A DNA stretch of 61,485 nucleotides from Salegentibacter lacus (GTDB lineage Bacteria; Bacteroidota; Bacteroidia; Flavobacteriales; Flavobacteriaceae), in NCBI RefSeq assembly GCF_020164555.1, contig NZ_JAIQZB010000022.1, positions 1 through 61,485 on the forward strand, given 5' to 3'. The notes beneath the pieces were generated by a model. That model saw only the letters and a program-made list of their open reading frames with translations, had not been told where the DNA came from and did no database searches. Below are positions 28,448-50,165 of the stretch, piece by piece (the stretch's first letter is position 1; every line of letters starts with the position of its first letter). Both the position numbers and the translations under genes were made by a program.

Positions 28448-29986
28448 TTATGTTTTAGAGGTGAATTCCTGGATTGCTTTTTCCATATTTCCATGCTTTT
28501 CATAGAGCTGCATAATGAGGTCGTTTTCTGTACCGTCAGTGAGATATGCCGCGTATACTTCTTTGGGGACTTCGAGACGAAAGACATTGCTCTCTTTCCC
28601 GATCTTGATAAAGATCTCGGTGTACTTTCTTTCTCCTATGAAGTTGTTTTTTATTGATTTTAGCTGGTTTAAATCGTGACTGGAAAGGTTTAATCTCTTT
28701 TGAAGCTCTTCATAACCCTTTTCATTTCGAAGGCTGTAGATCACCTGTGTGTTTTCCAGAATACTGGCAGAAGTCGAGTTATTAGGAAGCTGATTTATAG
28801 ATTGAAGAATAATTCCAATGGCACCATTCTGTTTCCTAATGGCCTGGTAATAAAATTCCACACTCTCCAGTACATTTTCAAACTTTAGTTGCTTGGCAAA
28901 CTCATCAAATAAAATGATCCCCTTCTCTGCCCGGTTCTTCCAGATGGTTCTTTGGATGGCAGATTTGATAAGCTTCAGCATTACCGAAAGGATCTCTTTA
29001 TTATCTTTCACTTCATCTAATTCAAATACTATTAAGCACTTGTCTTCAATTTTATAGGTTTGGTCTTCACCTACTTCAAATAGAAAACTGTAGATTCCGT
29101 CTTCCACATATTCCGACATTATGTGCAGGAAATTATTGATGTTGAAGTAATCGGGATGGATCTTAAGCACATGAAGAAGATCATCACTATGCCTTTCTAC
29201 ATAGCGGTAAAAGCTTTTCAAAGAATAGTCTCCATTATAATTTATATAATAATCAAGTAAAATCTTTTTAATGGAAACAGACTGGGCTTTGGTAACCTCC
29301 ATATCTGAAGCAAATAATTCAAAAAGAAACTCAGACAGGTCCTCAAGCCGATCGGCCGTGAGATCATCAGGGCTGCTTATATAGAAAGGATTAATTCCGA
29401 GGCTCTTCCCGTTCTCATAGCGCAGAATGCTGTAATCATTAGGATAAAGCTTTGCGAATTTCGTATAAGATCCGCCAAGGTCTATAATCACTAAACGAAC
29501 CCCGCTTTCAAAATATTGACGAAGTATATTGTTGGCCAGAAAAGATTTACCTTCTCCTGTAGGGGCGAAAATGGCAAAATTCCTGGCCTTTATTCTTTTC
29601 TTGCTTTCATCCCACACATCTTTTAAAACCGGGATGTTATATTCCCTGTCATTAAAAATCACTCCTTTAGCATCTGATTTATAATTACTGTTATTAATAA
29701 ACAGGCACAAAGCGTGTTTTAGATCGGTCACATAAAGATCCTCATTAGAGAAATTTGAAGAAAAACAGAAGTAGCTATTCAGAAAATAATTCTTGCGCTC
29801 CTCCCCTTTTGGGTAATAGGGAACAATGTCCAGGAGTTTAAACTCAGTTTTTATCCTGGCATTAATCGAAGAAAGATTAGTACGGTCATTATCCCAATAA
29901 ATCACATTTAAGTGCCCACGGATAATTCTGGAGGTATCATCGTTATTTATTTGGTCCAGAATATGCTGGATTTTCTTAAGGACCAC
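28448..29986 (-). CDS. traG: TraG conjugation ATPase, C-terminal part (frameshifted)
   Basis: 512 residues from a GTG at 29986. VirB4-like motor domain: Walker A APTGEGKS near residue 140, Walker B GIILFDEFAKQ, and LQSINQLPNNSTSASI near 400. It lacks the N-terminal domain, which is encoded in the preceding frame at 30019-30849. The frame is open up to about 30030, so one missing base would rejoin the two parts (…VED then LNKSSNFGSQNK). Full-length family members have about 800 residues; the two parts sum to this. As it stands the ATPase would be split. Confidence 0.85.
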   Translation of the reverse strand: MVLKKIQHILDQINNDDTSRIIRGHLNVIYWDNDRTNLSSINARIKTEFKLLDIVPYYPKGEERKNYFLNSYFCFSSNFSNEDLYVTDLKHALCLFINNSNYKSDAKGVIFNDREYNIPVLKDVWDESKKRIKARNFAIFAPTGEGKSFLANNILRQYFESGVRLVIIDLGGSYTKFAKLYPNDYSILRYENGKSLGINPFYISSPDDLTADRLEDLSEFLFELFASDMEVTKAQSVSIKKILLDYYINYNGDYSLKSFYRYVERHSDDLLHVLKIHPDYFNINNFLHIMSEYVEDGIYSFLFEVGEDQTYKIEDKCLIVFELDEVKDNKEILSVMLKLIKSAIQRTIWKNRAEKGIILFDEFAKQLKFENVLESVEFYYQAIRKQNGAIGIILQSINQLPNNSTSASILENTQVIYSLRNEKGYEELQKRLNLSSHDLNQLKSIKNNFIGERKYTEIFIKIGKESNVFRLEVPKEVYAAYLTDGTENDLIMQLYEKHGNMEKAIQEFTSKT

Positions 29987-30018
29987 TTTATTCTGTGAAC
30001 CAAAATTTGAACTCTTAT

Positions 30019-30849
30019 TTAGTCTTCAACCTTCGCATCAAGTAGTTTTCTCCATTTTTGGCGATCATCGAGATAGATGACTTGGTTTACAATATGGTTT
30101 TCCTTTAAATTCAGACCCAGTCCGTCAATAAACCCCTGGTGAAAAACGAAATCATCTGAAGTAAACTTATCATTGGTTTTACTACTTTGAACATTCTCTC
30201 CAAAGCACAATTCACTATTTACCGCCAGCACGTCAAAATGTTTGTCGCCAATACTGATGTTATTTTTATCCAGTAAAATATTGGTATCAAATCCATCCTG
30301 GAAACCATTAAAATATTTAGTGGAGAACCTATTAATTTCGTTCTCAGTAAGAGGAATAAGCTCCAGCTTTCGGCTATTGTTTAAAAAAGAAACCGTATCA
30401 TTTACTGAATTCTGAAATCTTTTTAAGTTATCATCCAGGTCTCCCGGAATATTCCTGCTCACTTTTTTGAAGGGATTTACATATTTGGGATGGTTGAAAG
30501 ATTTGTTCTTTGTATGAATGAAGAAGAGATAACTACGATGTTCTAAATGTTCCCTGCCTTTAAAATAGGAATGGGTAGCTTTTTCCAAAAATGTATGGTT
30601 TGGTAATTTCTCTGCCGAATAGTTTCTTTTTAAATACACATCCTGTTTATGAACCACTGTTCCTGTAGGTAGTGATTTTAAAGCCTGAAACCAGGCACTA
30701 TAAATTTCTTCAAAATCATTCTCTGATAAACTATAGATCTCCGGAAGTATCGCTTCAAAAGCCAATACAACATTCCCATTGGCAGCAAAAACCATATTTC
30801 CACGTATATCGGCGATGGGTGGTATAGAAGAAAGATTAATCTTGCTCAT
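30019..30849 (-). CDS. traG: TraG conjugation ATPase, N-terminal part (frameshifted)
   Basis: 276 residues beginning MSKINLSSIPPIADI, the normal start of Bacteroidota TraG proteins, with FEAILPEIYSLSENDFEEI. It ends at a TAA (30019-30021) just where the motor domain should follow, because the reading frame changes. It overlaps the traF stop by 14 nt. Either the gene is inactivated by a one-base deletion, or the sequence has a base-call error, or there is frameshifting in translation. No typical slippery heptamer is obvious. Confidence 0.85.
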   Translation of the reverse strand: MSKINLSSIPPIADIRGNMVFAANGNVVLAFEAILPEIYSLSENDFEEIYSAWFQALKSLPTGTVVHKQDVYLKRNYSAEKLPNHTFLEKATHSYFKGREHLEHRSYLFFIHTKNKSFNHPKYVNPFKKVSRNIPGDLDDNLKRFQNSVNDTVSFLNNSRKLELIPLTENEINRFSTKYFNGFQDGFDTNILLDKNNISIGDKHFDVLAVNSELCFGENVQSSKTNDKFTSDDFVFHQGFIDGLGLNLKENHIVNQVIYLDDRQKWRKLLDAKVED

Positions 30850-31120
30850 AATGAAAGTTGCTTAATCGTTTAGAAGAAATAGTTTCTGGAAAGACTCTTG
30901 AAACCTGGAAGACCTGCGGATTACTGGTTAACCTGGTTAAGCAGATATACAGAGTACAGTTGAAAATAAACACGCAAATTACCGCTCCGAGACTGAAGGA
31001 AAATATAATTACCAACAGTGATCCTACCACGGCTATCATCATAAGGGCAAAGAGCGAAACCGGCAATCCCCAGATCATCGCTCTTTTCCTGATGTTTCGG
31101 TATACTTCGAAACTTTTCAT
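30836..31120 (-). CDS. traF: Conjugative transfer protein TraF (DUF4133)
   Basis: 94 residues, two close membrane helices (about 18-37 and 40-60: LFALMMIAVVGSLLVII, GAVICVFIFNCTLYICL) and a short cytoplasmic tail, as in VirB3-like DUF4133 proteins. The start overlaps the traE stop by 1 nt, and the end overlaps traG by 14 nt, so the genes are translationally coupled. Confidence 0.87.
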   Translation of the reverse strand: MKSFEVYRNIRKRAMIWGLPVSLFALMMIAVVGSLLVIIFSFSLGAVICVFIFNCTLYICLTRLTSNPQVFQVSRVFPETISSKRLSNFHYEQD

Positions 31121-31407
31121 TACACTACTATTCCAATGAGGTATGTAAATATTCCTACAACCGCTCCTGCAATAAGCGTAAAGACCAGCACCCGGGTAAT
31201 TCCTTTCTTTAAATCTGCATTCTCACCAAAGAAGTGACCTGCATTAAAGAGGAATCCGACCAGGAAAATAACCCCGAGAATGATGGGGAAAATAGCTCGA
31301 ATAGTATCGGCTATGTCTGCAACTGAATTTTCAATGCCGCCAATTTGTGCAAAGAGCGGATAAGAAACCAGCGTCAAAAGGACTGATGAGTAAATTGTTT
31401 TTTTCAT
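31120..31407 (-). CDS. traE: Conjugative transfer protein TraE (DUF4134)
   Basis: 95 residues from the ATG at 31407, which starts a signal peptide (MKKTIYSSVLLTLVSYPLFA). The frame is open for 37 codons upstream, but that part resembles nothing. After cleavage it is a short two-helix protein like VirB2 pilins (AIFPIILGVIFLVGFLF, VLVFTLIAGAVVGIFTYL). It is the first gene of the minus-strand tra operon, so a promoter should lie in 31408-31600. Confidence 0.88.
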   Translation of the reverse strand: MKKTIYSSVLLTLVSYPLFAQIGGIENSVADIADTIRAIFPIILGVIFLVGFLFNAGHFFGENADLKKGITRVLVFTLIAGAVVGIFTYLIGIVV

Positions 31408-31798
31408 AATGTTCGTTTTTTTTAATCTGCCAAAGCAGAATTGATTGATGATGACCACTTGATGATTAATTTTTGAGAAATTTATTATGAAAGGGAAAGC
31501 CTGGAACAAACCGCCCAAACTTTAACGCGAGTTGAAGTTGTGAGCAATAAGATTCTTATAAAATGGAAGGATTAATTGAATTTTATTTAAAGGGAAGAAG
31601 AATTTAAGAGCCTAAAAAGAGGTAAGAATTTCTTAAGCCAAAGAATATATGGATCTATATTTAGTTTGGAATTATCGCAGCACTTTGTTTATCCGGGATA
31701 TTATTATTTTAAAAATGTATATTGTTTGCGATTTCACGAGTTGTGCTTAATGCTCAAATTGAGAAAATCTTATCTTAAAAAAAAAATAACTGATTTTT
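31408..31798. other. Divergent intergenic region traE / nuclease gene
   Basis: About 390 nt without a gene, expected to hold the tra operon promoter on the minus strand and the nuclease promoter on the plus strand. I see no long inverted repeat. Confidence 0.4.
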
Positions 31799-37693: not shown

Positions 37694-37972
37694 CTAATAA
37701 TTATTATCTACCCTGTATTTCTGCATTACTCGTTGTAAATCTTCGGTGTCATAATAAATAGTACCGCCTATTTTGGTGTAGGGAAGTGTACCATTTATTC
37801 TCATATTCTGTAAGGTGCCAGCACTTATATGCAAAAATTTCATCACTTCTGTAGATCTCATATACCTCCTGAGATTTCCTTTTAAGTGATCTGAAAGGAG
37901 TTGCTTCAGTTCTTCAAACAGTTCTAATTTAAACTCCATAAGGTCTTCGGTGGTGAGTACTGTAACTGGCAT
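37694..37972 (-). CDS. HTH_17 (excisionase-like) protein
   Basis: 92 residues from the ATG at 37972; the GTG nine codons upstream lies in a hairpin and is less likely. The C-terminal half is a MerR/excisionase-type helix-turn-helix: YMRSTEVMKFLHISAGTLQN then GTLPYTKIGGTIYYDTEDL. Such proteins are encoded near replication or excision genes of Bacteroidota conjugative elements and may act as recombination directionality factor or regulator. It is first in the operon with the two replication-like genes. Confidence 0.82.
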   Translation of the reverse strand: MPVTVLTTEDLMEFKLELFEELKQLLSDHLKGNLRRYMRSTEVMKFLHISAGTLQNMRINGTLPYTKIGGTIYYDTEDLQRVMQKYRVDNNY

Positions 37973-37989
37973 ATTAAAATGTTTTAATA

Positions 37990-38031
37990 AAGATCCCACC
38001 GATGGTTATAGCTTTTACACGATGGGATCTT
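37990..38031 (-). terminator. Hairpin between rteC and the HTH gene
   Basis: AAGATCCCA (37990-37998) pairs perfectly with TGGGATCTT (38023-38031), with two more G-C pairs inside. On the minus strand it is followed by TATTAAAA. It could be the rteC terminator or an attenuator in the leader of the HTH gene. Confidence 0.6.
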
Positions 38032-38231: not shown

Positions 38232-39053
38232 TTAAAGGGCGTCACCCTGATTTAATTTCTGCTCCAAATGCCAGGTGATTAGGTCCAGAAATTTTGTTCT
38301 CCTCCCCTTTCTTCCCTTGATCTCAGAAAACTTTTTATAGGAATTATCAAACTTCTGACTAAAAATCTCTTCAAATAATGAAACGATATCAATAATATTA
38401 CCAGCCCCGTTATTAATTGCTCCGGAAAAATGTAAGGCGTAAATAAGTTCAATTAGGTCTACTTTAGAAGCCGTCCAGTGTAGATCGTGTTTACTGATAA
38501 ATTCACTTTGTGGCTGATCTAATAATTCCATTTGTCTCTGTAGAAGCGGAAGCAGCCTTTTGTAGGCTCTTAAATAAGCTAAAAGAATATCGTGAGAAGT
38601 ATTGAATTCAGGATCCCAATATAGCGAAGTATCATAGTGTGCCACTTCATTTTGAAATTTCCGGGTAAAATAAAATTTATCCATATTGGTTTGTTCCAGA
38701 TCTATATATAGCTGAAATTCCCTGTTACGCTGAAAAAACTTATTAATCTTTTTAATCTTCCTGGATAAATATTTCATTCTGAATTTAATCGATGAAGTTG
38801 ATTCAAGTTCAAGAGCACGAAGGTTTGTATAGTAAATAAGCTGACTAAGAGGAATTTGCTTTTCCTCTTTAAAAAACTGAACCTCTTCGGAAATAGATTT
38901 AAATTTGAGAACCCTTATATTGTTTCGGTAGGTTTCAAGAACTTCGCGGCTGTATTTGATAATCCTATTAAATGCAATGAGCCTAGAGGGGGAAGATTCC
39001 TCTATTTTTGAAATTTCTTTCAAAAGTTGTTCCGATGTTATTAGAAAATTCAC
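38232..39053 (-). CDS. rteC: RteC-family regulator
   Basis: 273 residues of the RteC-like family: long helices (EISKIEESSPSRLIAFNRII, SIKFRMKYLSRKIKKINKFF), a central EFQLYIDLEQTNMDKFYFTRKF, and a C-terminal helix-turn-helix-like end (VDLIELIYALHFSGAINNG, then GRRTKFLDLITWHLEQKLN). In CTnDOT, RteC induces excision and transfer genes. It is upstream of the HTH/replication genes in the same direction. A TTTATAAA palindrome lies upstream (39207-39218). Confidence 0.85.
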   Translation of the reverse strand: MNFLITSEQLLKEISKIEESSPSRLIAFNRIIKYSREVLETYRNNIRVLKFKSISEEVQFFKEEKQIPLSQLIYYTNLRALELESTSSIKFRMKYLSRKIKKINKFFQRNREFQLYIDLEQTNMDKFYFTRKFQNEVAHYDTSLYWDPEFNTSHDILLAYLRAYKRLLPLLQRQMELLDQPQSEFISKHDLHWTASKVDLIELIYALHFSGAINNGAGNIIDIVSLFEEIFSQKFDNSYKKFSEIKGRKGRRTKFLDLITWHLEQKLNQGDAL

Positions 39054-39123: not shown

Positions 39124-39218
39124 TTTATAAATCAAAATGCTACATTTATAAACAAATATTGTTAAGAAGTGCTTGCTGAATTATTCCTTTCATTAATAAA
39201 TAAGTTCATTTATAAATG
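39124..39218. promoter_or_regulatory. TTTATAAA palindromes upstream of rteC
   Basis: TTTATAAA occurs three times in 95 nt (39124-39131, 39145-39152, 39209-39216). The last is the core of a perfect CATTTATAAATG (39207-39218). The same 12-mer occurs at 41748-41759, and a related 14-mer at 47029-47042, so these may be shared operator sites. No gene lies in 39054-39323. Confidence 0.45.
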
Positions 39219-39323: not shown

Positions 39324-41480
39324 TTAGTGATCCTGTCTCATGTTACTCCTGGCAAAACTAAAAATTTTGCTATAAAGCTTCACAGTCTCATCGCTACCCT
39401 GGCCTTCGTGACCGTAGTGAAAATCAATATCCATTAAAATGGGAGTTTCTCCTTGTGATATACTCTGTAACTTAGCTATATACTTACCACTATCCCACAA
39501 AGGAATACGGTCATCTTGAGATGCTGGCAGTATTAAAGTCGGCGGATATTTATTCTCTGAATTCAAGTTAAAGTAGGGATCCATTTTTACCAAACCTTCA
39601 AATTCCAGGCTATCTTTTACTGTTCCATACTCCAGATAACTTGTACTACTAGCCGTAGCAGAGGATTCCAGACCTAAAGGATTTAATCTGGGTACTTCTG
39701 CTATGTATGAAGAAAAAAGATCCGGACGTTCATTTACGGCCATACCTGCAGTAATTCCACCTGCACTATATGTATATAAAGAAATTAATCCTTTTTTGGT
39801 AAAACCTTTTGTGATTAAGGCTTCTGTACAAGAAATAAGGTCTCTCCAGGAATTATGCTTAAGTGTTTTCTGACCCTGTAAATGCCATTCTTTGCCCTTT
39901 TCTCCACCTCCTCTTACGTGAGGAAAAGCGAGAATACCTCCCTGGGCTGCCCAGTCTAAAATAATAGGATAGAAAAAGGGACTTAGGCTTTCACCGTATG
40001 CGCCATACACATAAATAAATACCTCATTCTCTGAATTTAGCAAGTTGGGATCGTAAATTAGAGATAATGGCACCTCTACCCCATCGTGACTTTCAACCAT
40101 AATCTGCTCTGTAATAAGATTTTCAAATTCAGGATATAAAGTTTCTGTTTTCAATCCCTCCTTCTGTAAATCTTTATTTTCTGTAATAATGAACCTGGTA
40201 TAGTTCGAGATCCACCCATCTAATTCTACTCCAATAAGATTAGTTTTTACTGAACCCCCAAAAAATGTGGCGTACCCCGGTACAAATGGTGTTTTCAATT
40301 TGGCTATATTCTTTTCCTTATCAATTTCCCAGAGACTAACTTCAACACCTAACTTAGATTTTGAGTAATATATTTTATCCTTAGTGATATCAAATTGGGT
40401 GATTGGATTTTCTTTAGTTCCTTCTGCAAGTACCTCTGGATTATTAAAATTAGGGGAATGGAACTTGACACGGCTTACTTGATTTCCGGTGTTATTACCC
40501 TGCCGGAAAATAAATTCATCACCCCTTATATCTCCCTCAGTTGTATAAACTTTCTGCTCTACATTAAAAAAAGGAATCCAATTTTCATTTCCTGATACTA
40601 TATCTGAAACTCTAGCAATGTATGCGTCATAGTAATCATTGGAAGTAGCAGAATATCCAATGATATATTTATCCTGACTGGAACCAATTTTTACTTTCGG
40701 ATAAAAATCTGCAGAAATATTAACTGTGTTACTATTGCCAAAAACTTTCTTCTTTTCAGCCGGACTATTCCCTAATTTGTGAAGAACGGAATAAGAATTC
40801 TTTTTGTAGTCCGGTTTATTTTGATCTACTACTGGAAAATAGAGATAGATAAAACCCGAGCTATCAGGCAACCATTCAATCCCCCCAAATGAAGGATTTA
40901 TATTGATGATCTCTTCTTTATAAAATTTCTTATTTTTCACATCAAATATTCTAACCCTAGATGAAAAATTTTTATCGGGTTGATATCCAATGGCAATTTT
41001 CTCTCCATCGAATGAGGGTTTTAGATAGGTGATCTCTGTTATCTCATCATTATTTCCAGGATCAAATAGTTCCTCCTCCTCTGATGATAGATCTTTTCTA
41101 AAATATAGTTTATTCGTACCTGATGTATCATCATATTTTAAGTAAAAATAGTTTCCTTCTTCATTCACTTTAATCATACTGGTTGTTCCGTTCTCACGAT
41201 TTTGGTATTCTTCAAATTTTTCCAGATAATCTTGCAAAAGATCATTTTTAGAAAAATAATCTTCCGATAAAGAGTCCTGGGTTTTTAACCATTGGTCTAT
41301 TATTGGGTCTTCAAGATTATTCAAGTTGTCATAATCATCCTGAAGTGTGACACCAAATTCATTAATGGTCGCCACTTGCTTGGAAAGAGAAGGATATTGT
41401 GTAAGTTTTTGTTGACCAAAAGAAATGGTTATTGATACTAAGCTCAAGCATAGTATTAGGAGGTGATCTTTGTTTTTCAT
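39324..41480 (-). CDS. Exported prolyl oligopeptidase (S9A)
   Basis: 718 residues. Signal peptide (LLILCLSLVSITISFG), then the S9A propeller (about 70-440), and the alpha/beta-hydrolase domain with catalytic S572 (YSAGG), D656/657 (ASQDDRIP) and H691 (YGHEGQG). The family cleaves short peptides after proline. It lies 62 nt downstream of a gene for a Pro/Arg-rich double-glycine peptide, separated by a hairpin. I infer that this peptide may be its substrate, for maturation, signal removal or self-protection. Location: periplasm or outside. Confidence 0.9.
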   Translation of the reverse strand: MKNKDHLLILCLSLVSITISFGQQKLTQYPSLSKQVATINEFGVTLQDDYDNLNNLEDPIIDQWLKTQDSLSEDYFSKNDLLQDYLEKFEEYQNRENGTTSMIKVNEEGNYFYLKYDDTSGTNKLYFRKDLSSEEEELFDPGNNDEITEITYLKPSFDGEKIAIGYQPDKNFSSRVRIFDVKNKKFYKEEIININPSFGGIEWLPDSSGFIYLYFPVVDQNKPDYKKNSYSVLHKLGNSPAEKKKVFGNSNTVNISADFYPKVKIGSSQDKYIIGYSATSNDYYDAYIARVSDIVSGNENWIPFFNVEQKVYTTEGDIRGDEFIFRQGNNTGNQVSRVKFHSPNFNNPEVLAEGTKENPITQFDITKDKIYYSKSKLGVEVSLWEIDKEKNIAKLKTPFVPGYATFFGGSVKTNLIGVELDGWISNYTRFIITENKDLQKEGLKTETLYPEFENLITEQIMVESHDGVEVPLSLIYDPNLLNSENEVFIYVYGAYGESLSPFFYPIILDWAAQGGILAFPHVRGGGEKGKEWHLQGQKTLKHNSWRDLISCTEALITKGFTKKGLISLYTYSAGGITAGMAVNERPDLFSSYIAEVPRLNPLGLESSATASSTSYLEYGTVKDSLEFEGLVKMDPYFNLNSENKYPPTLILPASQDDRIPLWDSGKYIAKLQSISQGETPILMDIDFHYGHEGQGSDETVKLYSKIFSFARSNMRQDH

Positions 41481-41494
41481 TACCCTAAATTTTG

Positions 41495-41524
41495 AAAAGC
41501 CCAGAACATTCCGGGCTTTTTTTT
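41495..41524. terminator. Hairpin between the peptide gene and the peptidase gene
   Basis: AAAAGCCC (41495-41502) pairs with GGGCTTTT (41513-41520), followed on the plus strand by further T. On the minus strand, read from the peptide gene, it ends in TTTTC. It would give much peptide mRNA and less peptidase mRNA. Confidence 0.75.
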
Positions 41525-41542
41525 AGTTACAACCGTTAATCC

Positions 41543-41662
41543 CTACTTACCAGGTCTAGGTCGTCTCACCTTGTCACGATCAATTACAGGGTTTCCCCCT
41601 CCCTTAATCTTTTCCAAGTTTTTTAAAGCTCTTCCCTGGTAATCTTTCAATGATTTTTTCAT
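41543..41662 (-). CDS. Double-glycine-leader precursor peptide
   Basis: 39 codons. The leader ends NLEKIKGG: L16 at -7, I19 at -4 and G21-G22 at -2/-1, the recognition pattern of C39 peptidase exporters. The start is MKKSLKDYQGRAL. Predicted mature core: GNPVIDRDKVRRPRPGK, 17 residues with net positive charge and three prolines. It has no Cys, Ser or Thr, so lanthipeptide-type modification is unlikely. It is encoded between the exporter/sensor genes and the prolyl oligopeptidase gene. It may be a pheromone or an antimicrobial peptide. Confidence 0.8.
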   Translation of the reverse strand: MKKSLKDYQGRALKNLEKIKGGGNPVIDRDKVRRPRPGK

Positions 41663-41747
41663 GATTAAAAAATTTAATTGTTAATAAATATTTGTTTGCT
41701 ACTAAATAACTACATCGGACATCAAATAGCAATATTTACATACCTGC

Positions 41748-41759
41748 CATTTATAAATG
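41748..41759. promoter_or_regulatory. Palindrome upstream of the peptide gene
   Basis: Perfect CATTTATAAATG, 86 nt before the peptide start codon and overlapping the stop codon of the TPR/AraC gene. Same motif as at 39207-39218; related to 47029-47042. Confidence 0.5.
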
Positions 41760-43472
41760 ACCGTCCACTTTTCTTGAGTTCAGCTCCTTTATAAATTTTG
41801 AAGGGTACACACCTGTGATTTTATAGAAGGCTTTAGAAAAAGATTCACTTGTTTTAAATCCAAACACTTCAGCTAATCCCTGGTTACTAAATTTTAAAAG
41901 TCCAGGATCATTATTTAACATCCTGATGGCTTTAGCTACCCGGAGATCTTTAAGATAATTAGGAAATGTTTTCCCTTTATATGTATTAATAATTACAGAA
42001 AGGTATGAGGTGTTAGTTTCCAGCTCTTGCGCCAGGGAAGACATATCTAATTCTTTATCTAAAAATCTTTCCGAGTTTTCGAACTTTTCCAGCTTATTTA
42101 AAATATCATTTCTTATATCTTCCGGCACAGAAGTAGGGTGATTAGTAACTGGCTTCTCATTTACTATTTTTTCTTTTACTATACCTTCTTCCATTAAAAC
42201 TTTCAATTTTCTTTGCATACGGACCGATCTCATAAAGAAAAAAATTCCCGTAAAGCTTCCTAAACCTGCCAGTAATCCAACTCCGGTTATGATTGTTTTT
42301 TTATTTTCCAGCTGCGCTTCGGCCTCCCTTTTTTGATGCTTTAAATAAGGAATATCATAGGAGGCCATAGCTGCATTTGTCACATTTTCCTGCTTTATTG
42401 AATGTAAACTATCGTAGGTAATTAGCTTCCCGATGTATTCTATCTGACTCTCCTTGTCATTCTGGCTCATAGAATGGAGAATTAGCTGATGATAAACTTC
42501 TTTAACCTCCAAAAATGGATCTTCAGTTGCAGTAACTATAGAATCAATTTCTTTGAAATATTTAATTGAAAGATCTTTATTATTTAATCTCTCCTCTATT
42601 TTACCCAGATAATATAATTTAATGGCTTTACCGGTACCACCTAAAGAACCGCTGTATTTGAGGAGTGTATCCCTGGCCTTATCATAAGCTCCCTCATAAA
42701 AATTGATTTGTGCGTCTAGTAGAATGAAATCCTGAAAATTGACATTGTCCTTCAATTCTAAGGTTAAATCAATGCCCTGATTAGCATAGTACCTCGCCGA
42801 GTCTAAAGATTGTAATCTTAAATGTGTAAGAGATAGATTAAAAAGCAAAAGGGTATAATCTTCATAATATCGTGTCCCAAGATTTTTCTCGTTTTTCAGT
42901 AATTTTAAATATTTATTGTAAAGTTCAACCGCGGCATAATGCTGTCCGTAAAGATTTCTAATGGCGGCAATGGCTAACGAAAATTCTTTTTGCTGTTCAA
43001 CATTATTTTTATTCAAAGCAAGATTATAGGCCTCTAGGTAATTGGAAAGTGCTTCCTGGAAATTTCCCGACTCATAATGGAGATGCCCCTTAAGAGCATA
43101 ACCCATCGCAGGATAATTTGGATGAATACTCTCTTTAGTAATCACAATTATAGAATCTGCATATGCCAATGCAGAAAGAGTGTTCTCTAAATTTGTATAA
43201 TAATAAAAAGCTCTGGCTTTTTCAATATTATTCTTCTCTGCAGTAGCTTTTCTCAGGTGTATTTTGATAAGCAACTCTAAAGCCTCGCTATCTTCACTTT
43301 GAAATGCTTCGTATTCCAGTTCTTGAATTTCTTCATAGGATAATTTTGTCCATACTTCTTCATTACTCCTATTATGACTATTCTGGGAATACCCATTAAA
43401 AGATATCATACCACTTAATACAAACATTAAATAGAGAAAGATTGATTTATATGTTGTCGGGATTGTTGCCAT
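41751..43472 (-). CDS. Membrane TPR/AraC one-component regulator
   Basis: 573 residues. Signal or membrane segment at 10-29, then a TPR-rich extracytoplasmic domain (about 40-380; AMGYALKGHLHYESGNFQEA is one repeat). A transmembrane helix follows near 395-415 (IITGVGLLAGLGSFTGIFFF), and then a cytoplasmic AraC-type helix-turn-helix (ELDMSSLAQELETNTSYL near 470, FKTSESFSKAFYKITG near 545). Periplasmic TPR domains can bind peptides, so it could sense the exported peptide and act directly on DNA. It starts 12 nt after the HlyD gene, in the same operon. Confidence 0.85.
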   Translation of the reverse strand: MATIPTTYKSIFLYLMFVLSGMISFNGYSQNSHNRSNEEVWTKLSYEEIQELEYEAFQSEDSEALELLIKIHLRKATAEKNNIEKARAFYYYTNLENTLSALAYADSIIVITKESIHPNYPAMGYALKGHLHYESGNFQEALSNYLEAYNLALNKNNVEQQKEFSLAIAAIRNLYGQHYAAVELYNKYLKLLKNEKNLGTRYYEDYTLLLFNLSLTHLRLQSLDSARYYANQGIDLTLELKDNVNFQDFILLDAQINFYEGAYDKARDTLLKYSGSLGGTGKAIKLYYLGKIEERLNNKDLSIKYFKEIDSIVTATEDPFLEVKEVYHQLILHSMSQNDKESQIEYIGKLITYDSLHSIKQENVTNAAMASYDIPYLKHQKREAEAQLENKKTIITGVGLLAGLGSFTGIFFFMRSVRMQRKLKVLMEEGIVKEKIVNEKPVTNHPTSVPEDIRNDILNKLEKFENSERFLDKELDMSSLAQELETNTSYLSVIINTYKGKTFPNYLKDLRVAKAIRMLNNDPGLLKFSNQGLAEVFGFKTSESFSKAFYKITGVYPSKFIKELNSRKVDGHL

Positions 43473-43484
43473 ACTTAAATCATA

Positions 43485-44771
43485 TTAGGTTGTCCAAAGC
43501 TGTCGAAACTGATAAAAAACACGCTCAAGCAAGGTGACTTCTTCAAGCACTATTTCTGCGGTTCCTATTAATTCTTGATGGAGAATTAGCTCCTTTCCAT
43601 AGGAAGTCACTAAACTATCTACATCTAAATAAACAATATATGCTGGCACTGCATCCCTGCTAGGAACCTCTGAGATCGAATTAACACTGGCTTTAATCAT
43701 TCCCCATTCCCGGTATGGATAATTGTCTAGCTTTAAATAAACCTTTTGCCCCCTATTAATCTGACCTGAATTTTGAACAGGAACAATACATTTACCCAAC
43801 AAATCCTTTCTCATATAAGGAACAATGGTAAACACTATTTCGCCTTCTTCAACATTCTGATGTTCTCCCCAAACCTGATTATAAGAAAGCCTACCTGCAA
43901 CGGGACTTTTTATAATATTTTTATCCTCCCACTCTGAAATCTCATTAAGAAGATTTTGCTGTGCAAAAACCAATTCCGCCTCCTGAAGACTTAATTTTCG
44001 TTCTTCAGAAGTCCTTAAAATTTCAAGATCGTTTTTCGCCCTGCTCTTATCAGCCTGGAGTTGGATCATCTGTTGTTTCAGTAAAGAGTATTGTCGATTC
44101 TTCTCGGTAAATTCCAACTCAACCTTTTCCAAATCAAATTTTGAGATCACTCCTTTTTCAAATAATTGCCGATGGCGATTTATATTTTCAGTTGAAATAG
44201 AAAGACTGTTTTCCATCAATTGAAACTCCTCCTCTTTAGAATTTAATATTGAGCCCTGGTTATCAATATTTTGGAGCAAGCCTTGCTCCATTATTTGGTT
44301 CTGGCCAAGTGTATTTTCTAAGATAAGCTTGTGATATTCTTCTAAAAACCTATTGTATGCTGCCTGTAAGGAAGTTCCCAGACTTAAGTTTACCGGAAAT
44401 TCGGTTAGTAATGCTTCCAGTGATAATACTTTTAGAAAATCTTTCCCTAATCTTTCTTTTAGGAAAGTTATATCTTTTTGTTTTGCAGGATTATCAAGTA
44501 CTGCAACAATATCTCCTGCTACTATGGAGTCTCCGGGTTTATAATAAATAGCAGAAAGCTTTCCATCTCTTTTCACTTTAATTTCAACAGGAGGATTCTT
44601 TGAAGTAAGAGTTACCGATCCTTTTACCACCTGATTAAAAGAAATAATACCGGCCAGAATTAACACTAGAAAGAAGAATACAAACATATAGGCTGTACCG
44701 CGGCGCAGTATATAACCAGGCTCAATATTCAGGGAATTGCTTCCGTTCCTATTAAATTTTCTATTTTCCAC
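43485..44771 (-). CDS. HlyD-family secretion adaptor
   Basis: 428 residues. A membrane helix at 28-46, biotinyl-lipoyl-like halves flanking a long coiled coil (about 110-270, ISTENINRHRQLFEKGVISK), and a C-terminal beta barrel (RGQKVYLKLDNYPYREWGMI). It is the periplasmic adaptor of the C39 ABC exporter, encoded 4 nt upstream, and would join the exporter to an outer-membrane channel. No outer-membrane factor gene is in the cluster, so a host protein such as TolC would be needed. Confidence 0.9.
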   Translation of the reverse strand: MENRKFNRNGSNSLNIEPGYILRRGTAYMFVFFFLVLILAGIISFNQVVKGSVTLTSKNPPVEIKVKRDGKLSAIYYKPGDSIVAGDIVAVLDNPAKQKDITFLKERLGKDFLKVLSLEALLTEFPVNLSLGTSLQAAYNRFLEEYHKLILENTLGQNQIMEQGLLQNIDNQGSILNSKEEEFQLMENSLSISTENINRHRQLFEKGVISKFDLEKVELEFTEKNRQYSLLKQQMIQLQADKSRAKNDLEILRTSEERKLSLQEAELVFAQQNLLNEISEWEDKNIIKSPVAGRLSYNQVWGEHQNVEEGEIVFTIVPYMRKDLLGKCIVPVQNSGQINRGQKVYLKLDNYPYREWGMIKASVNSISEVPSRDAVPAYIVYLDVDSLVTSYGKELILHQELIGTAEIVLEEVTLLERVFYQFRQLWTT

Positions 44772-44775
44772 AATC

Positions 44776-46962
44776 TCAAATCTTTAATTGGTTTTTGATC
44801 AGGTTATGGTAAACTCCTTTATTTTGAATTAAATACTGGTGACTCCCCCTTTCAACAATCTCACCCTTGTTCATAACCAGAATCTGATCAGCAGTCATTA
44901 CTGTGGATAGCCTATGGGCAATTATTAATACCGTTCTGTTTTTATAAAAAGGATTCAATTTATCAGTAATAAATTTTTCGTTTTCTGAATCCAGGGAGCT
45001 GGTGGCCTCATCAAGAAATAAATAATCTGGATTTTTATAAATTGCCCTTGCCAGTAAAATTCTTTGTCTCTCTCCGCCACTAAGGAGCTGTCCGTTTTCA
45101 CCAATCTTTGTCTGGTACCCCAGAGGTAGTTTCTCAATAAAATCATTTAGATTAACCATTTCCACAGCTTTTCGCAATGAGATTCGATCCACCGGAATAT
45201 CTGGTTGTGATTCTGTAATATTCCTTTCAATGGTATCGTTAAAAAGACAACCATCCTGCATTACCACTCCACATCTACTTCTCCAAAAAGATGTATTAAT
45301 ATCACGAAGATCTTCATCCCCAACTTTCAAAGTACCTTTCCAGGGTTTATAAAATTTCAGAAGCATTTTTAATAAAGTTGTCTTTCCAGAACCGCTTGAC
45401 CCAACAATTGCAGTGATCTTTCCTTTGGGAATAGTAATATTCAGATCATTTAGCAAGGGAGGTAAGGAAGGGTTTCCATATCCAAAACTTAGATTCCTTA
45501 GCTGAAGATCTCCTTCGGGTATGGTATTGTCATAGCCTCTTCTGTTATCTTCAGGTGTTTGATTATGGACTTCAGACAACCTGTTAAAAGAGAGTCTGGC
45601 GCTCTGATAATCGGTAAGAAAATTGATGATATTCGATATAGGTAAGGACAGAGAGCCAATAATAAATTGGATAGCCAGCATAGCCCCTAAAGTAATTTGC
45701 CCGGTGATCACGGCTTTTGCAGACCCGAAAATTATCAAAATATTGGTTAATTCATTTAAGAATAAACCGCCTTTAATCTGAGCTTGCCCTAAGCTTAAAA
45801 TCTTTGACTTTATCCTGAAAAGACCATTTTGGTTAAGTTCCCACTCCCCTTTCCTCCTGTTCTCAGAATTGTTTAATTTAATTTCGGAAACAGCAAGAAT
45901 GATCTGCAGAAATAGGGATTGGTCTTTCCTGTTAAGGTCGAAAAGCTGGTTATCCAAAAGTTCCTTTCTTTTCATAAATAATAATGACCAACCGAAAAAC
46001 AAAGAAGTGCCGGTAAAGAAGATAAGTGCAATATGGGGATGGAAGTAAAACAGCACTAATCCGAATACTACTATAGAAAAGATATCAAAAGGGATATTTA
46101 AACCACGGCCGGTTAGAAACTCGTCTATCCTTTGATGATCATAGATTCTTTGCATAAAATCGCCGGTGTTTTTTGATTCAAAATATTCTAAAGGAAGGCT
46201 CAATAGTTTCCCTAAAAAATCTGATAGCATTTGAATATTTACTCGGGTACTTATATACAAGAGAATCCAGTCTCTGATCACTTCTGATGCAGAACGCGTA
46301 AGAAACAAAAAGAACTGTGCTAATAATATAAGGTTGATAAAACCAAAATCTTCATAATTTATTCCATAGTCAACCAGGCTTTGTGTAAGGAAAGGAAGCA
46401 TTAACTGAATGGTAGCGGCAATTATTAAACCCAGAAATAACTGGTTTATATATTTCTTATATGGTTTGAGATAATCAATTAGAAATCTCAAACCATTTTT
46501 ATTTTCCACTTCCGGAGGTTCCTCGCCCAGGAAATGATCAGTGGGTTCTACAAGAAGAAGAACACCCTGTTCTTTCTCTGTCTCAGCCCATTTACTGATG
46601 AATTCACTATGGAGGTATTTCAACTTGCCATAGGCCGGGTCTGATACATAAATGAACTTGTGATTAACCTTATATATAATTATAAAATGATTCCCCTCCC
46701 AATGTGCAATAGCGGGAAGGGGTATTTCTGAAATTAATTCCTGAAAATTCACTTTGATCCCGACAGATTCTATCCCCAGTTTGCTTAATGCTTCGGAAAG
46801 TCCTCCCAAAGAAGCGCCATCTCTTTGCAGAAAAGAGATTTGTCTTAAATATTCCAGATCATATTTTTTTCCGAAGAATTCAGTGAGCATCTTTAAACAA
46901 GACGGCCCGCAATCCATCTGATCCAGTTGACGATACAAGGGAAAATCGATAGTCCTAAACAT
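44776..46962 (-). CDS. C39-peptidase ABC exporter
   Basis: 728 residues in three parts. Peptidase C39 (1-130): C18 in QMDCGPSC, H92 in NHFIII, D108 in SDPAYG, so all catalytic residues are present. Six-helix membrane domain (about 165-440). ATPase: GSSGSGKTTLL (Walker A), LLSGGERQRILLARA (signature), YLFLDEATSSLD (Walker B), and AHRLST. It cuts leader peptides after Gly-Gly and exports the core. The likely substrate is the peptide at 41543-41662. First gene of the operon with HlyD and TPR/AraC. Confidence 0.95.
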   Translation of the reverse strand: MFRTIDFPLYRQLDQMDCGPSCLKMLTEFFGKKYDLEYLRQISFLQRDGASLGGLSEALSKLGIESVGIKVNFQELISEIPLPAIAHWEGNHFIIIYKVNHKFIYVSDPAYGKLKYLHSEFISKWAETEKEQGVLLLVEPTDHFLGEEPPEVENKNGLRFLIDYLKPYKKYINQLFLGLIIAATIQLMLPFLTQSLVDYGINYEDFGFINLILLAQFFLFLTRSASEVIRDWILLYISTRVNIQMLSDFLGKLLSLPLEYFESKNTGDFMQRIYDHQRIDEFLTGRGLNIPFDIFSIVVFGLVLFYFHPHIALIFFTGTSLFFGWSLLFMKRKELLDNQLFDLNRKDQSLFLQIILAVSEIKLNNSENRRKGEWELNQNGLFRIKSKILSLGQAQIKGGLFLNELTNILIIFGSAKAVITGQITLGAMLAIQFIIGSLSLPISNIINFLTDYQSARLSFNRLSEVHNQTPEDNRRGYDNTIPEGDLQLRNLSFGYGNPSLPPLLNDLNITIPKGKITAIVGSSGSGKTTLLKMLLKFYKPWKGTLKVGDEDLRDINTSFWRSRCGVVMQDGCLFNDTIERNITESQPDIPVDRISLRKAVEMVNLNDFIEKLPLGYQTKIGENGQLLSGGERQRILLARAIYKNPDYLFLDEATSSLDSENEKFITDKLNPFYKNRTVLIIAHRLSTVMTADQILVMNKGEIVERGSHQYLIQNKGVYHNLIKNQLKI

Positions 46963-47028
46963 AACAAATGAAACTAATTACAGTTAAATTTAATTTGGAA
47001 TTGATTAGGTTCCATCTCAAATAATCGC

Positions 47029-47042
47029 TGATTTATAAATCA
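47029..47042. promoter_or_regulatory. Palindrome upstream of the exporter gene
   Basis: Perfect 14-bp palindrome TGATTTATAAATCA, 66 nt before the exporter start codon. It shares the ATTTATAAAT core with the sites at 39207 and 41748. It may be an operator for the sensor genes of this cluster. Confidence 0.55.
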
Positions 47043-47240
47043 CGTTCTTTTGGAATAGAAATAGGGGAATATCTTTTCCTATAATGTCGCTTATTATAAG
47101 ATTTGTTTAATCGAGGGTATGTTTAAGCCTTCCAATCGATTGGGCAGCAGAAAATTAAGAAATAAAATAATATGTTTTGAATAAATTTTATTATCAAAAA
47201 GAGAAATTTTAAAGTGTGAAAAGTTTAAATTGATTTGTAA

Positions 47241-47369
47241 GCTATTTGGAACAATGTTTTGAATACCGATGAGTTTGTTCGGGTTTCCAACACCGATTTC
47301 GCCTATGTGCAAAGTACTTACAAGCTGAGACCTTCACAGGTTTTGGTGAGTCTGAAGTTTAGTTTTTAG
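47241..47369 (+). pseudogene. C-terminal remnant of an outer-membrane barrel protein
   Basis: 42 codons in plus orientation, ending STYKLRPSQVLVSLKFSF then stop: the closing strand with terminal Phe of TonB-receptor-like barrels. An in-frame stop precedes it and no more of the gene is seen in 46963-47240. It is a leftover of DNA present before the signalling cluster. The rest of 46963-47375 has only the palindrome above. Confidence 0.55.
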
Positions 47370-47375
47370 TTTATT

Positions 47376-48047
47376 TCAAATATATCCACTCTCCCTGGCT
47401 TTTTCCAATAATGCCTTATTACCTTCTCCCCTAACTCCAAAGACATCTTTAAGTTTTTTCTTTCTGTCCTCCACCGCTCTTAAAGAGAGGTTCACATATT
47501 TAGGAATATCCTTAGTCTTGGTACCTAAAGAAAGCTGGTAAAGCATCACTCTATCTATTTCATCGATTGAGGATTTCTGGGCTACTCCCGAACGAAGAAG
47601 ATTTGAAATTTTAGAACCATAATAAGGAGGTGAGTATAAGACTTTCTCTAAACAATGAATTAATTCCTTGGAAGTCGTTTCGCCCTTTATTAAAAAACCA
47701 TCTGGTTGAATATTTGAAAGAATGTTGAAAATTCTGAAATGATCTTCTAAAACAGTAAGAATTATAATTTTAATTTCGGGAAACTCAGTTTTTATTCTAA
47801 CCCCCAGGTCTTCCCCCGAATGGATTTTACTATCTTCTAAAACAGGAAAATTAATGTCCAAAAAAACCACGGAATAATTGCCTGTTTTAATTTTTTCCCA
47901 GGCATATTCGCAGTTATCTGCCATTTCAATATTAAAATTGAGAGCACTGAAAATTTTAGCTTTAGATATTACGTTTTTATAACCTTCCATAATCATATGG
48001 TGGTCATCTATTAATAGAATATCTAAATCTTCTTTTGACTCTTGCAT
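47376..48047 (-). CDS. LuxR/NarL-type response regulator
   Basis: 223 residues. Receiver domain with D14-D15, phosphorylated D64 (VVFLDINFP) and K in FLIKGET. The C-terminal helix-turn-helix (VMLYQLSLGTKTKDIPKYVN, LSLRAVEDRKKKLKDVFGV) is degenerate LuxR type. It is encoded 21 nt after the histidine kinase in the same direction and is the partner of that kinase. It lies upstream of the exporter operon, separated by 413 nt with a palindrome, which it may bind. Confidence 0.9.
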   Translation of the reverse strand: MQESKEDLDILLIDDHHMIMEGYKNVISKAKIFSALNFNIEMADNCEYAWEKIKTGNYSVVFLDINFPVLEDSKIHSGEDLGVRIKTEFPEIKIIILTVLEDHFRIFNILSNIQPDGFLIKGETTSKELIHCLEKVLYSPPYYGSKISNLLRSGVAQKSSIDEIDRVMLYQLSLGTKTKDIPKYVNLSLRAVEDRKKKLKDVFGVRGEGNKALLEKARESGYI

Positions 48048-48068
48048 TTATATTTTCCTTTTCAACGA

Positions 48069-50165
48069 TTAATTAAATGGAACCGTCAATTTTATTGTGG
48101 TTCCTTTCCTATTTTCACCTAATGAACTTATAGTAATTTTTCCCTTTATTTTTTTCACCCGGGCAAACATATTACCAAGCCCTATACCATTTTTTGTCTT
48201 TTCTGGAGAAAACCCGATACCATTATCTGTTATCCCTATAATCAATTGATCATTTAGATTTTCAAATTCAATCCTGGCTTCAGTAGCTTTAGAGTGTTTA
48301 TGGATATTGCTAATAGCCTCCTGAAGTACGCGATATATATTAATTTTAATATTATTATCTATTGTATCCCAATTAATTGACTCCTTAAATTCGATATGAA
48401 ATTTTATCGTTCCGGCATTTTGACTTTTTATAAGTTCTTCAAGTACCGTTTCAAAATTTACATTGCTTAAAGAAGTTTTATTTAATCTATGGGAAAGCAG
48501 GCGAATTTGATCTGATATTTTTTGAATTTCTCTAATATATTTAAATCTTTCTTTTTTGCTTTGGCTATCATCTTCTTCGTTCAGAGAGTCCAGATTCAGC
48601 CTTATCCCAAAGAGTTTCCCTAAAATCCCATCGTGTAATTCCCTGGAAATGTATTGCTTCTCTATATCACGTCCTTCTTCAAATTTTTTCTGTTGGTCTA
48701 TTACTAAATTATAAATCTCCTGGTTTGCCGTTTGTTTTTGTTTGATAAGCTTATTTTTTGCTCTTTGATTGCTAATAATGTATAATAGAATTATTACAAG
48801 GATTATTCCTGCAGAAATGAAGCTAGTTTGTGAAATTTGTTGATTTAGCCTATTTGCTTTAGAAATATATTCGTCTGTTTCAAACTGGATTCGGGCGAAT
48901 TTATTTCTAATTGCTCTTTCTTCTTTTTGTAGGCTATCATTGATTTTTATATATTCATTTGTATAGGTTAAAGCATTATCCTTATCTGCAGTTGACAATA
49001 TAAGCAGGGAGGATAGCAAATCCTTAAAATTGTTGGATTGCCTCGACAATTCTTGAACTTCGCGTGCATATTCTATTCCCTTGATAGTATCATTCTTATT
49101 CAGAAAATACTCAGCCAAGTGAAGTTTACTTGTTGTTACGCCATAATGATTTTGTAAACTATCTCTTATGCTAAGAGCCTTATAAAATATTGATGGTAAT
49201 TCTGCGGTTGTATCTTTAGATTTAAATCTTGCATAAGCAAGATTATCCAGGAGCATAGCATAAAGTTCTGTATCACTAACGAATAGGCTGTCTTGCTCTA
49301 AACCCTGTTCAAAATTTTGAATAGCATTGCTATATTTTTTTTGATTAACATATACAACGCCTATATTGTTTAGTGAACCAGGAACTCGATTTGTCAATCC
49401 TGATTTTTCAATATATTCTAAAGCTTTTCGGTGGTAGTAGATTGCCCTATCATACTCCCCCAGTTCGTTAAAAACTATTCCCAAATTATTATAGCTACTA
49501 TATAACTCCCCATACCCTTTTAAAGGTTTTAACATAGCTATAGCCTTTGTTGTAGTTATTTCACTTCCAGTATAATCCTTAATATTCTTCTGGATTATTG
49601 CCATATTGATCAATAACCTCGCTGCATCGAATTTGTTTCCAATTAACCAGTATATTTCCTGACCTTTATTATAATAATAAAATGCGCTATCATTCTTGTT
49701 TTGAATGTCACTATAAAAATTTCCCAATCTCCAATAGCATTTTGCTATAACAACAGAATCATTTGTCGTTTTAGCTAATTCCAAAACCTGATTATTTAAC
49801 TCTAAAAACCGAGAGGTATCAGGTAATTGATAATATGCATAAACAAGATCTAAATAATGAGGTTTTTTTAGGGAGTCCTTTTTTATTTTATTAATTAAGT
49901 TATAAGCCTCTTGTAAATTTTCCTTTCTTTCTAAAAAATCTATTTTCTTGTTTTTAGAACTGTCTATATGAGCGGTTATAGAATCGGTTGCCTTGGTTAA
50001 CATTTCAGCATCTCCTGTATCTTTTTTACAAGATAAAAAGGACAGCAATATTACTAGAAGAAAATAAAATTTGAGTTTCAAAAATTCAAGGATATGGGTT
50101 GCAAAGTTAGATTCTTTATTGAATAAAAAAAGTACATATTTAATCATCAGCTGTTTCCTTACCAT
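48069..50165 (-). CDS. TPR-containing sensor histidine kinase
   Basis: 698 residues as shown; the start could be later, because the export signal KFYFLLVILLSFLSCKKD begins near residue 30 and looks like a lipoprotein signal. TPR repeats (about 60-420; GELYSSYNNLGIVFNELGEY is one), a membrane helix near 445-465 (FISAGIILVIILLYIIS), HisKA_3 with phospho-accepting H in ISRELHDGILG near 515, and an HATPase (ITDNGIGF, KNGIGLGNM). Same periplasmic TPR design as the AraC protein, so two sensors could see the same peptide. It is the partner of the regulator downstream. Confidence 0.88.
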   Translation of the reverse strand: MVRKQLMIKYVLFLFNKESNFATHILEFLKLKFYFLLVILLSFLSCKKDTGDAEMLTKATDSITAHIDSSKNKKIDFLERKENLQEAYNLINKIKKDSLKKPHYLDLVYAYYQLPDTSRFLELNNQVLELAKTTNDSVVIAKCYWRLGNFYSDIQNKNDSAFYYYNKGQEIYWLIGNKFDAARLLINMAIIQKNIKDYTGSEITTTKAIAMLKPLKGYGELYSSYNNLGIVFNELGEYDRAIYYHRKALEYIEKSGLTNRVPGSLNNIGVVYVNQKKYSNAIQNFEQGLEQDSLFVSDTELYAMLLDNLAYARFKSKDTTAELPSIFYKALSIRDSLQNHYGVTTSKLHLAEYFLNKNDTIKGIEYAREVQELSRQSNNFKDLLSSLLILSTADKDNALTYTNEYIKINDSLQKEERAIRNKFARIQFETDEYISKANRLNQQISQTSFISAGIILVIILLYIISNQRAKNKLIKQKQTANQEIYNLVIDQQKKFEEGRDIEKQYISRELHDGILGKLFGIRLNLDSLNEEDDSQSKKERFKYIREIQKISDQIRLLSHRLNKTSLSNVNFETVLEELIKSQNAGTIKFHIEFKESINWDTIDNNIKINIYRVLQEAISNIHKHSKATEARIEFENLNDQLIIGITDNGIGFSPEKTKNGIGLGNMFARVKKIKGKITISSLGENRKGTTIKLTVPFN

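Follow-up and report, generated by a model that had tools for sequence, protein, structure and literature searches.

Organization of the peptide locus

We analyzed one whole contig of 61,485 nt from Salegentibacter lacus (the window), in which a 39-codon gene for a peptide with a double-glycine (GG) leader is located between the genes for a peptidase of family S9A and for a regulator that carries tetratricopeptide repeats (TPR) and an AraC-type helix-turn-helix (HTH) domain (TPR/AraC regulator). On the minus strand the genes are aligned in the order C39 exporter, HlyD adaptor, TPR/AraC regulator, GG-leader peptide, S9A peptidase, RteC and HTH_17 excisionase-like protein (Table 1), and all the genes named in the original prediction were confirmed in their positions and with their domains. 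Based on the conservation of these genes and on the palindromes that they share, we lean slightly towards the reading that the locus encodes an autoinducing peptide circuit, carried by an integrative and conjugative element (ICE), which would control its own genes and the transfer regulator.

The translation of the peptide gene consists of the leader MKKSLKDYQGRALKNLEKIKGG and the core GNPVIDRDKVRRPRPGK, with Leu at position −7, Ile at −4 and GG at −2/−1, confirming the textbook double-glycine leader proposed for this 39-codon gene. No Pfam or NCBIfam model matched the product at the thresholds used, and the ComC model gave one homologue an E value of only 0.026, too weak to reach the model cut-off. 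Between the window and the relative G149, the peptide gene differs by 10 synonymous and 2 non-synonymous codons (non-synonymous divergence dN, 0.022; synonymous divergence dS, 0.67), and between the window and G153 by 19 synonymous and 5 non-synonymous codons. Because dN is low compared with dS, and because a GG-leader frame occupies the same place in 16 of 17 TPR/AraC-peptidase pairs (see below), the frame is, on this comparative evidence, more than a chance frame, namely a real gene under purifying selection.

A terminator-like hairpin is located in the gap between the peptide and peptidase genes. It was absent from the output of the consensus terminator scan and was found on direct folding, while the L121 stretch, which was truncated, gave no signal when folded for such a hairpin. 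Since the stable hairpin is situated 3' of the peptide gene, it is plausible that the peptide is transcribed as a short, abundant RNA and that part of the transcription continues into the peptidase gene.

Conservation of the regulator-peptide-peptidase trio

In the exporter search, 37 of 149 genomes of the family and 5 of 15 genomes of the genus matched at E ≤ 1e-100. The peptidase search covered 349 genomes, 35 of which gave a match at E ≤ 1e-85, and a total of 38 peptidase loci were inspected, including six that were picked first since the exporter search had already detected the trio of regulator, peptide and peptidase there. G149, G151 and G155 are identical with L043, L044 and L045, respectively, and each was counted once. 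Wherever the TPR/AraC and peptidase genes were adjacent near an exporter, a GG-leader frame was present in the gap (6 of 6: the window, L074, L121, L116, L089 and L106). A TPR/AraC gene was located directly upstream of the peptidase gene in 16 of the 38 loci, and 15 of these 16 carried a GG-leader frame in the gap, 12 being detected by script and three (L169, L173 and L174) by reading the three frames. The other 22 peptidase loci, with no TPR/AraC gene directly upstream, contained no credible GG-leader frame; among these, L168 and L177 have little upstream DNA, and a hydrophobic frame of L184 with a chance G-[GAS] match was not counted. After addition of one pair from the peptide search (L212 of G464, known from a 3-kb locus only), a GG-leader gene was present between regulator and peptidase in 16 of 17 such pairs of Flavobacteriaceae.

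Judged by this recurrence, the trio of TPR/AraC regulator, GG-leader peptide and exported S9A peptidase is a conserved unit, and the prediction of a dedicated GG-leader peptide with its own regulator and peptidase was supported. That prediction had been staked beforehand on conservation of the frame and on the peptidase not occurring independently of the peptide; the outcome was mostly favourable, with the frame present at 15 of the 16 TPR/AraC-linked loci (missing at L188) and no credible frame at the 22 others. Four more TPR/AraC relatives were found near C39 exporters with no peptidase match, and all four had a GG-leader frame behind the regulator gene. Because these peptidase-less regulators also precede a GG-leader frame, the regulator-peptide link looks like the general one, with the peptidase as a frequent third member.

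The first hidden Markov model of the peptide matched 12 of the 349 genomes, 10 of them with the trio at the match. When the peptide model was applied to 296 genomes of the order and 296 genomes of the phylum, matches outside the family were restricted to the leader part (family f5, genus g241). In that genus the loci L202, L205, L206, L208 and L214 carry GG-leader frames with the common leader FSSLENKxLxxLxxIxGG and no trio genes. As to gene number, one GG-leader gene is followed by two tandem S9A peptidase genes in both L172 and L174. No title or abstract opening describing the trio was found in the literature search, which left most subscription journals and all preprints outside.

Peptide cores

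Ten loci, representing eight genera, encode a core of the "PIDRDK" type. In the alignment of the ten precursors, M1, G21, G22 and I27 are invariant, the GG thus being kept in all ten, and K2, N15, D28 and K31 are nearly so. A Pro residue precedes the conserved I-D/I-R pair by one or two residues in nine of the ten cores, the exception being L074. Six other loci (G190, G138, G123, G192, G332 and G464) encode unlike cores, such as NSPFNYNNDDDD... or DPIDIKTITTHVNI, which show no Arg/Pro bias and all have a Pro 2-13 residues after the GG. The suggestion, based on the RRPRP of the window core, of a proline-rich antimicrobial peptide is thus poorly supported, the conserved part of the core being PIDRDK-like and the divergent cores lacking such a bias, and we rejected it because the RRPRP tail is not conserved across the homologues.

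A class I lanthipeptide was also rejected for the window, since the core contains no Ser, Thr or Cys and since no dehydratase, LanB or LanC domain was detected in the ten genes scanned between 38232 and 52301. In two of the divergent trios (G332 and G123), genes for a split lanthipeptide dehydratase (PF04738, PF14028) are located directly ahead of the regulator gene.

Regulator, exporter and peptidase

All 15 trio regulators examined contain one hydrophobic segment, between residues 347 and 420, that separates the TPR region from the HTH. The same hydrophobicity threshold was also passed at the N-terminus by 7 of the 15, some starts having been cut short by the script. The regulator is probably a membrane protein of this topology, with a periplasmic TPR sensor and a cytoplasmic DNA-binding HTH. 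A structure prediction from two sequences was all-helical and of low confidence (mean predicted local distance difference test score, 48.6). No second TPR/AraC homologue was found in the S. lacus genome at E ≤ 1e-10. An exporter homologue is present near the trio in nine of the ten PIDRDK-type loci.

An alignment of 15 trio peptidases, in which L174 is represented by the second of its two tandem copies, shows the catalytic Ser, Asp and His to be conserved throughout. In prolyl oligopeptidases, a Trp residue (W595 in the porcine enzyme) stacks on the P1 proline. No Trp was detected in the corresponding segment of any of the 15 trio peptidases or of the 23 comparison peptidases, and strict proline specificity, as had been supposed for the window enzyme, is not supported in spite of the Ser-Asp-His set. 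Cleavage at the recurrent core Pro would be an attractive maturation step, resembling in its logic the cut made by a second protease in several lanthipeptides (PMC10885120), to which the pocket adds no independent support. Read by eye, many of the trio peptidase N-termini are similar to lipoprotein signals, and that of the window to an ordinary signal peptide.

A palindrome shared by peptide gene, exporter and rteC

The palindrome ATTTATAAAT was detected in 12 of the 16 trio gaps tested (L188 was excluded), whereas 2000 rounds of first-order Markov resampling of these gaps gave 0.20 on average and at most 3. When the spacing to the start codon was computed over all 16 precursors, the distance from the start of the 10-mer to the peptide ATG was 78-98 bp in all 12 cases, and the distance to the end of the regulator gene varied. 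Complementarity between the arms that flank the 10-mer, counted over eight positions, is complete in G332 and G192 (8 of 8) and falls to 7 in G110 and G138, 6 in G334 and G123, 5 in G230, 4 in G333 and no more than 3 in the window, G153 and G238. For the gaps without the exact 10-mer, G149 has ATTCATAAAT, G080 has TTTTATAAAA, G190 has a palindrome with a different core, and G144 has no palindrome. Of the 23 comparison peptidase genes, one carries the palindrome within 450 bp upstream.

In five genomes of the genus, the same 10-mer lies 69 bp ahead of the exporter match. Ahead of rteC it was found in 6 of 9 trio-linked loci and in none of 30 others, the latter being those of the best-scoring genomes in a longer match list (Fisher p = 2.6e-5). 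For G110 and G334, the site lies between the divergently aligned rteC and TPR/AraC genes; with the remaining four taken as 4 of 9, p is 0.0015. Ahead of rteC in G153, three copies of TTTATAAA are present and the full 10-mer is absent. Close pairs of TTTATAAA are spaced by 21-22 bp in 8 of 16 cases, exactly 21 bp in six of these, with three representing one inherited Salegentibacter pair; no pairs were found in the control, which was one resampling. Half-sites of AraC are about 21 bp apart. In L174 (2612-5714) and L176 (3797-6873), split lanthipeptide dehydratase genes immediately precede the TPR/AraC regulator gene, and TTTATAAA pairs 21-22 bp apart are located ahead of the dehydratase in both.

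The palindrome is also present in the trios of G332, G192, G123 and G138, for which no rteC or tra match was detected in the scanned stretch. Because the palindrome occurs in trios without a detected rteC and is absent ahead of rteC genes without a trio, the TPR/AraC protein is probably its owner.

Mobile-element context

The window contains a tyrosine recombinase, a coupling protein, a tra ATPase and RteC on one stretch, the set that marks an ICE of the CTnDOT/RteC kind. RteC controls the excision and transfer genes in CTnDOT, as stated in part of PMC1976400. The stretches adjoining the trios were scanned with 56 window frames and the L121 recombinase. Homologues of the window tra genes were detected near the trio in eight of the ten PIDRDK-type loci (the window, G149, G153, G080, G110, G334, G333 and G230), and rteC adjoins the trio or its exporter in nine of the ten; the contig of G238 ends just past rteC. 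Trio, exporter and rteC are arranged and oriented differently from element to element, and the regulator, peptide and peptidase genes stay together. Mobile DNA of marine bacteria often harbours the trio. For five divergent trios, no rteC or tra match was detected in the scanned stretch (59 kb for G332, 39 kb for G192, 19 kb for G123, 18 kb for G138 and 7 kb for G190); G332 has one weak match to window frame 4086-4433, located 15 kb away. A frame near the G138 trio looks, by appearance, like a recombinase.

A proposed circuit and its alternatives

In the circuit that we propose, the C39 exporter would cleave the 39-residue precursor after the GG and, together with HlyD, export the 17-residue core, which the exported S9A peptidase would then trim (or remove); trimming of GNPVIDRDKVRRPRPGK would yield VIDRDKVRRPRPGK. 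The TPR domain of the membrane-bound TPR/AraC protein, facing the periplasm, would sense the level of peptide, and its cytoplasmic AraC domain would act on the palindromes with a ATTTATAAAT core ahead of the peptide gene, the exporter operon and rteC. A build-up of the peptide would therefore, via the AraC domain at these palindromes, feed back on its own production and alter RteC. The sign of regulation could be either activation, a crowd of carriers triggering transfer, or repression, as in the case of PhrI, which represses when the neighbours already carry the element. The ICE context, the nearby rteC and the shared palindrome make a cell-density signal for transfer, mentioned only in passing in the original prediction, its best-supported part. 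We also consider it possible, if not quite probable, that these systems form a class of peptide quorum sensing of the Bacteroidota's own, in which exported GG-leader peptides would be read in the periplasm by transmembrane one-component TPR/AraC proteins and tuned by an exported S9A peptidase, and which ICEs would have adopted so as to set, through rteC, the time of excision and transfer.

A number of observations weigh against this circuit. At L188, three tandem TPR/AraC relatives are followed by the peptidase without any GG-leader frame. G230 has no exporter near the trio, one being encoded elsewhere in its genome, and the exact 10-mer is absent ahead of rteC in both G153 and G230. G080 has its variant palindrome ahead of the peptide gene and none ahead of rteC or the exporter, and around the G144 trio, which is of PIDRDK type, rteC, the tra genes and the palindrome are all absent. 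The exporter-side palindrome is known from one genus only (Salegentibacter), and none of the four peptidase-less regulator-peptide pairs has such a palindrome in the 500 bp flanking it on each side. In the S. lacus genome at least 50 copies of the 10-mer were found and at least 50 of the reversed control pattern; from this equal listing, the 10-mer core alone is not specific and cannot define a regulon. The rteC gene was present in 122 of the 349 genomes, most of which lack this module; because rteC itself is common, the module marks a subset of rteC elements. Related regulators may also serve possible antibiotic clusters, as in the two trios with lanthipeptide dehydratases.

Compatible with the circuit is a different role of the peptidase as a signal-destroying arm, which would clear the peptide from the periplasm so that only a dense population would pass the threshold, a role that we regard as possible and on the doubtful side. 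Such a role fits the peptidase N-termini, which look like signal or lipoprotein signal sequences, and the position of the peptidase gene behind the hairpin, which would allow its separate dosage; the recurrence of a core Pro in 9 of 10 PIDRDK-type cores (all but L074) and in all six divergent cores, however, suggests trimming rather than indiscriminate degradation.

It is unlikely that the peptide is a bacteriocin carried by the ICE as cargo, with autoregulation by the TPR/AraC protein and an exported peptidase that protects the producer or matures the toxin. Export of GG-leader peptides by C39/HlyD systems is typical of bacteriocins, two related trios adjoin the split lanthipeptide dehydratases, and class II lanthipeptide clusters tend to be located near gene-exchange genes, according to part of PMC12715929. 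Against a bacteriocin, the core is short (17 residues), charged and conserved in its middle, no separate immunity-like gene was noticed with the trio, although no search was aimed at one, and the palindrome is located also ahead of rteC, where a mere cargo toxin would not need it.

Binding of the palindrome by RteC or another ICE regulator, the trio being a mere passenger beside rteC, is improbable. The frequent vicinity of rteC to PIDRDK-type trios would agree with it, but the site is missing from all 30 rteC loci without a trio and occurs in trios for which the scanned stretch showed no rteC; on these grounds RteC was rejected as the owner.

The genes for a TPR histidine kinase and its response regulator, taken in the original prediction for a second sensor of the system, are located in DNA that the relatives lack at this place. 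Collinearity of the window with G149, G151 and G155 ends at 47213, and that with G153 at 47078; all four relatives have a tyrosine-recombinase gene at that place. A 95-bp match at 58950-59044 of the window corresponds to the 3' end of the tyrosine-recombinase gene of the relatives, and an att site was rejected as its source for this reason. Because the collinearity stops there and the match to the recombinase gene follows at 58950-59044, the intervening stretch with the kinase and response regulator genes was most likely inserted into this genome at a later time. Related kinase/regulator pairs are located ahead of other GG-peptide clusters in L112 and L115, and the pair may have originated from a cluster of this kind. 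That the kinase pair and the TPR/AraC protein form one sensing system is scarcely credible, even with the pair situated directly upstream of the exporter in the window and with its relatives preceding other GG-peptide/C39 clusters, since the collinearity breaks at the recombinase position and since the other nine PIDRDK-type loci gave no kinase/regulator match near the trio at the thresholds used; on these two grounds the pair was rejected as a part of the system.

The clusters of L115 and L112 follow the order kinase, response regulator, a protein of about 800 residues, GG-leader precursor and C39 exporter, an arrangement that is, by gene order, a second kind of GG-peptide cluster. The precursors there (L115, 5225-5601; L112, 6046-6219) include two tandem near-copies and one that contains 17 consecutive Gln. 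A short plus-strand frame (47259-47369), bordering the stretch missing in the relatives, ends with LRPSQVLVSLKFSF and resembles the C-terminal remnant of a TonB-dependent receptor.

Comparison with known systems

In RapI-PhrI of ICEBs1 and PrgX-cCF10 of pCF10, which belong to the RRNPP group, the secreted peptide is taken up again by the cell and is bound in the cytoplasm. The rapI/phrI strains of ICEBs1 are treated in part of PMC3715440. The likeness to the circuit proposed here is that a short exported peptide, encoded by the element, and a TPR-type regulator control the excision or transfer of that element. Compared by layout, the window differs in having a GG leader, a C39 exporter and a TPR protein that also contains a hydrophobic segment and an AraC domain; RRNPP proteins combine a cytoplasmic HTH with TPR, whereas here the HTH is of AraC type and the hydrophobic segment intervenes between it and the TPR region. 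If the circuit is true, peptide quorum sensing, mainly a theme of Gram-positive bacteria, would also operate in a large Gram-negative phylum, where the layout of the sensor is different.

To our knowledge, the trigger of transfer of Bacteroidota conjugative elements is known for little besides CTnDOT and its kin, which are induced by tetracycline; an element-encoded peptide with candidate operators ahead of rteC would be a direct and testable answer. The window resembles the RteABC system of CTnDOT in that a conjugative element of the Bacteroidota carries RteC next to an excisionase-like gene. In CTnDOT, the activator of rteC is RteB, a member of a two-component pair produced only in the presence of tetracycline (PMC1976400), whereas in the window the candidate switch of rteC is the TPR/AraC protein, a one-component regulator that has a peptide of its own.

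With the ComC/BlpC pheromones of competence and bacteriocin production, which are exported by ComA-type exporters and detected by histidine kinases, the window shares the GG leader and the peptidase-containing exporter, but its conserved partner is the TPR/AraC protein instead of a histidine kinase. Class I lanthipeptide clusters of Bacteroidetes have LxLxK-type leaders ending with GG and C39 proteases, as described in part of PMC7268733. The LxLxK-type leader ending with GG, the C39 domain and the split LanB in two divergent trios are points of likeness, whereas no dehydratase or cyclase was seen beside the window trio and the core has no residue of Ser, Thr or Cys. Two-step maturation of lanthipeptides, by a C39 exporter followed by a second protease (CylA or LicP), is covered in part of PMC10885120; a prolyl oligopeptidase for class III lanthipeptides appears there in a reference title, and LanPB in part of PMC7268733. 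As in these systems, the second protease is encoded beside the precursor gene; the window differs in having an exported S9A enzyme beside a GG-leader peptide that is apparently unmodified. Since the trio is easily recognized, sequence allows each peptide to be matched with its sensor and peptidase in different genomes.

Other features of the window

Table 1. Positions of the trio, its neighbours, the palindromes and the ICE genes in the window
Feature	Position	Strand	Observation
C39 peptidase-containing ABC exporter	44776..46962	-	Peptidase_C39, ABC membrane and ATPase domains
HlyD-type adaptor of exporter	43485..44771	-	domain match
TPR/AraC regulator	41751..43472	-	TPR-like region; hydrophobic segment, residues 393-414; HTH_18, residues 480-562
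GG-leader peptide gene, 39 codons	41543..41662	-	22-residue leader and 17-residue core GNPVIDRDKVRRPRPGK
Terminator-like hairpin, gap between peptide and peptidase genes	41495..41520	-	folding, -15.8 kcal/mol, z -4.7
S9A-family peptidase	39324..41480	-	signal-peptide-like N-terminus; catalytic residues present; non-canonical S1 pocket
RteC	38232..39053	-	domain match; regulator of excision and transfer genes in CTnDOT
HTH_17 excisionase-like protein	37694..37999	-	adjoins rteC
Response regulator	47376..48047		domain match
TPR histidine kinase	48069..50165		domain match
Palindrome ATTTATAAAT ahead of peptide gene	41749..41758		96 bp to start codon; overlaps end of regulator gene; candidate regulator site
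Palindrome ATTTATAAAT ahead of exporter	47031..47040		69 bp upstream of exporter match; five genomes of the genus
Palindrome ATTTATAAAT ahead of rteC	39208..39217		sequence match
TTTATAAA, two copies 21 bp apart, ahead of rteC	39124..39152		sequence match
ICE conjugation genes, TraG P-loop ATPase and neighbours	24174..31518	-	other ICEs carry homologues close to the trio
ICE mobilization genes, DUF5712 protein and TraG/TraD-type coupling protein	5720..8379	+	match search

No tRNA genes were found in the window. On the plus strand, a reverse transcriptase gene (22488-24017) is close to the Drt2 defence family (PADLOC, E = 3e-144). A type I restriction-modification set (restriction endonuclease, methyltransferase and specificity subunit), followed by a candidate defence protein of type PDC-S26, is located at 15620-21823 on the same strand, and genes for UvrD-like (12713-15376) and UmuC-like (11427-12716) proteins adjoin this set.

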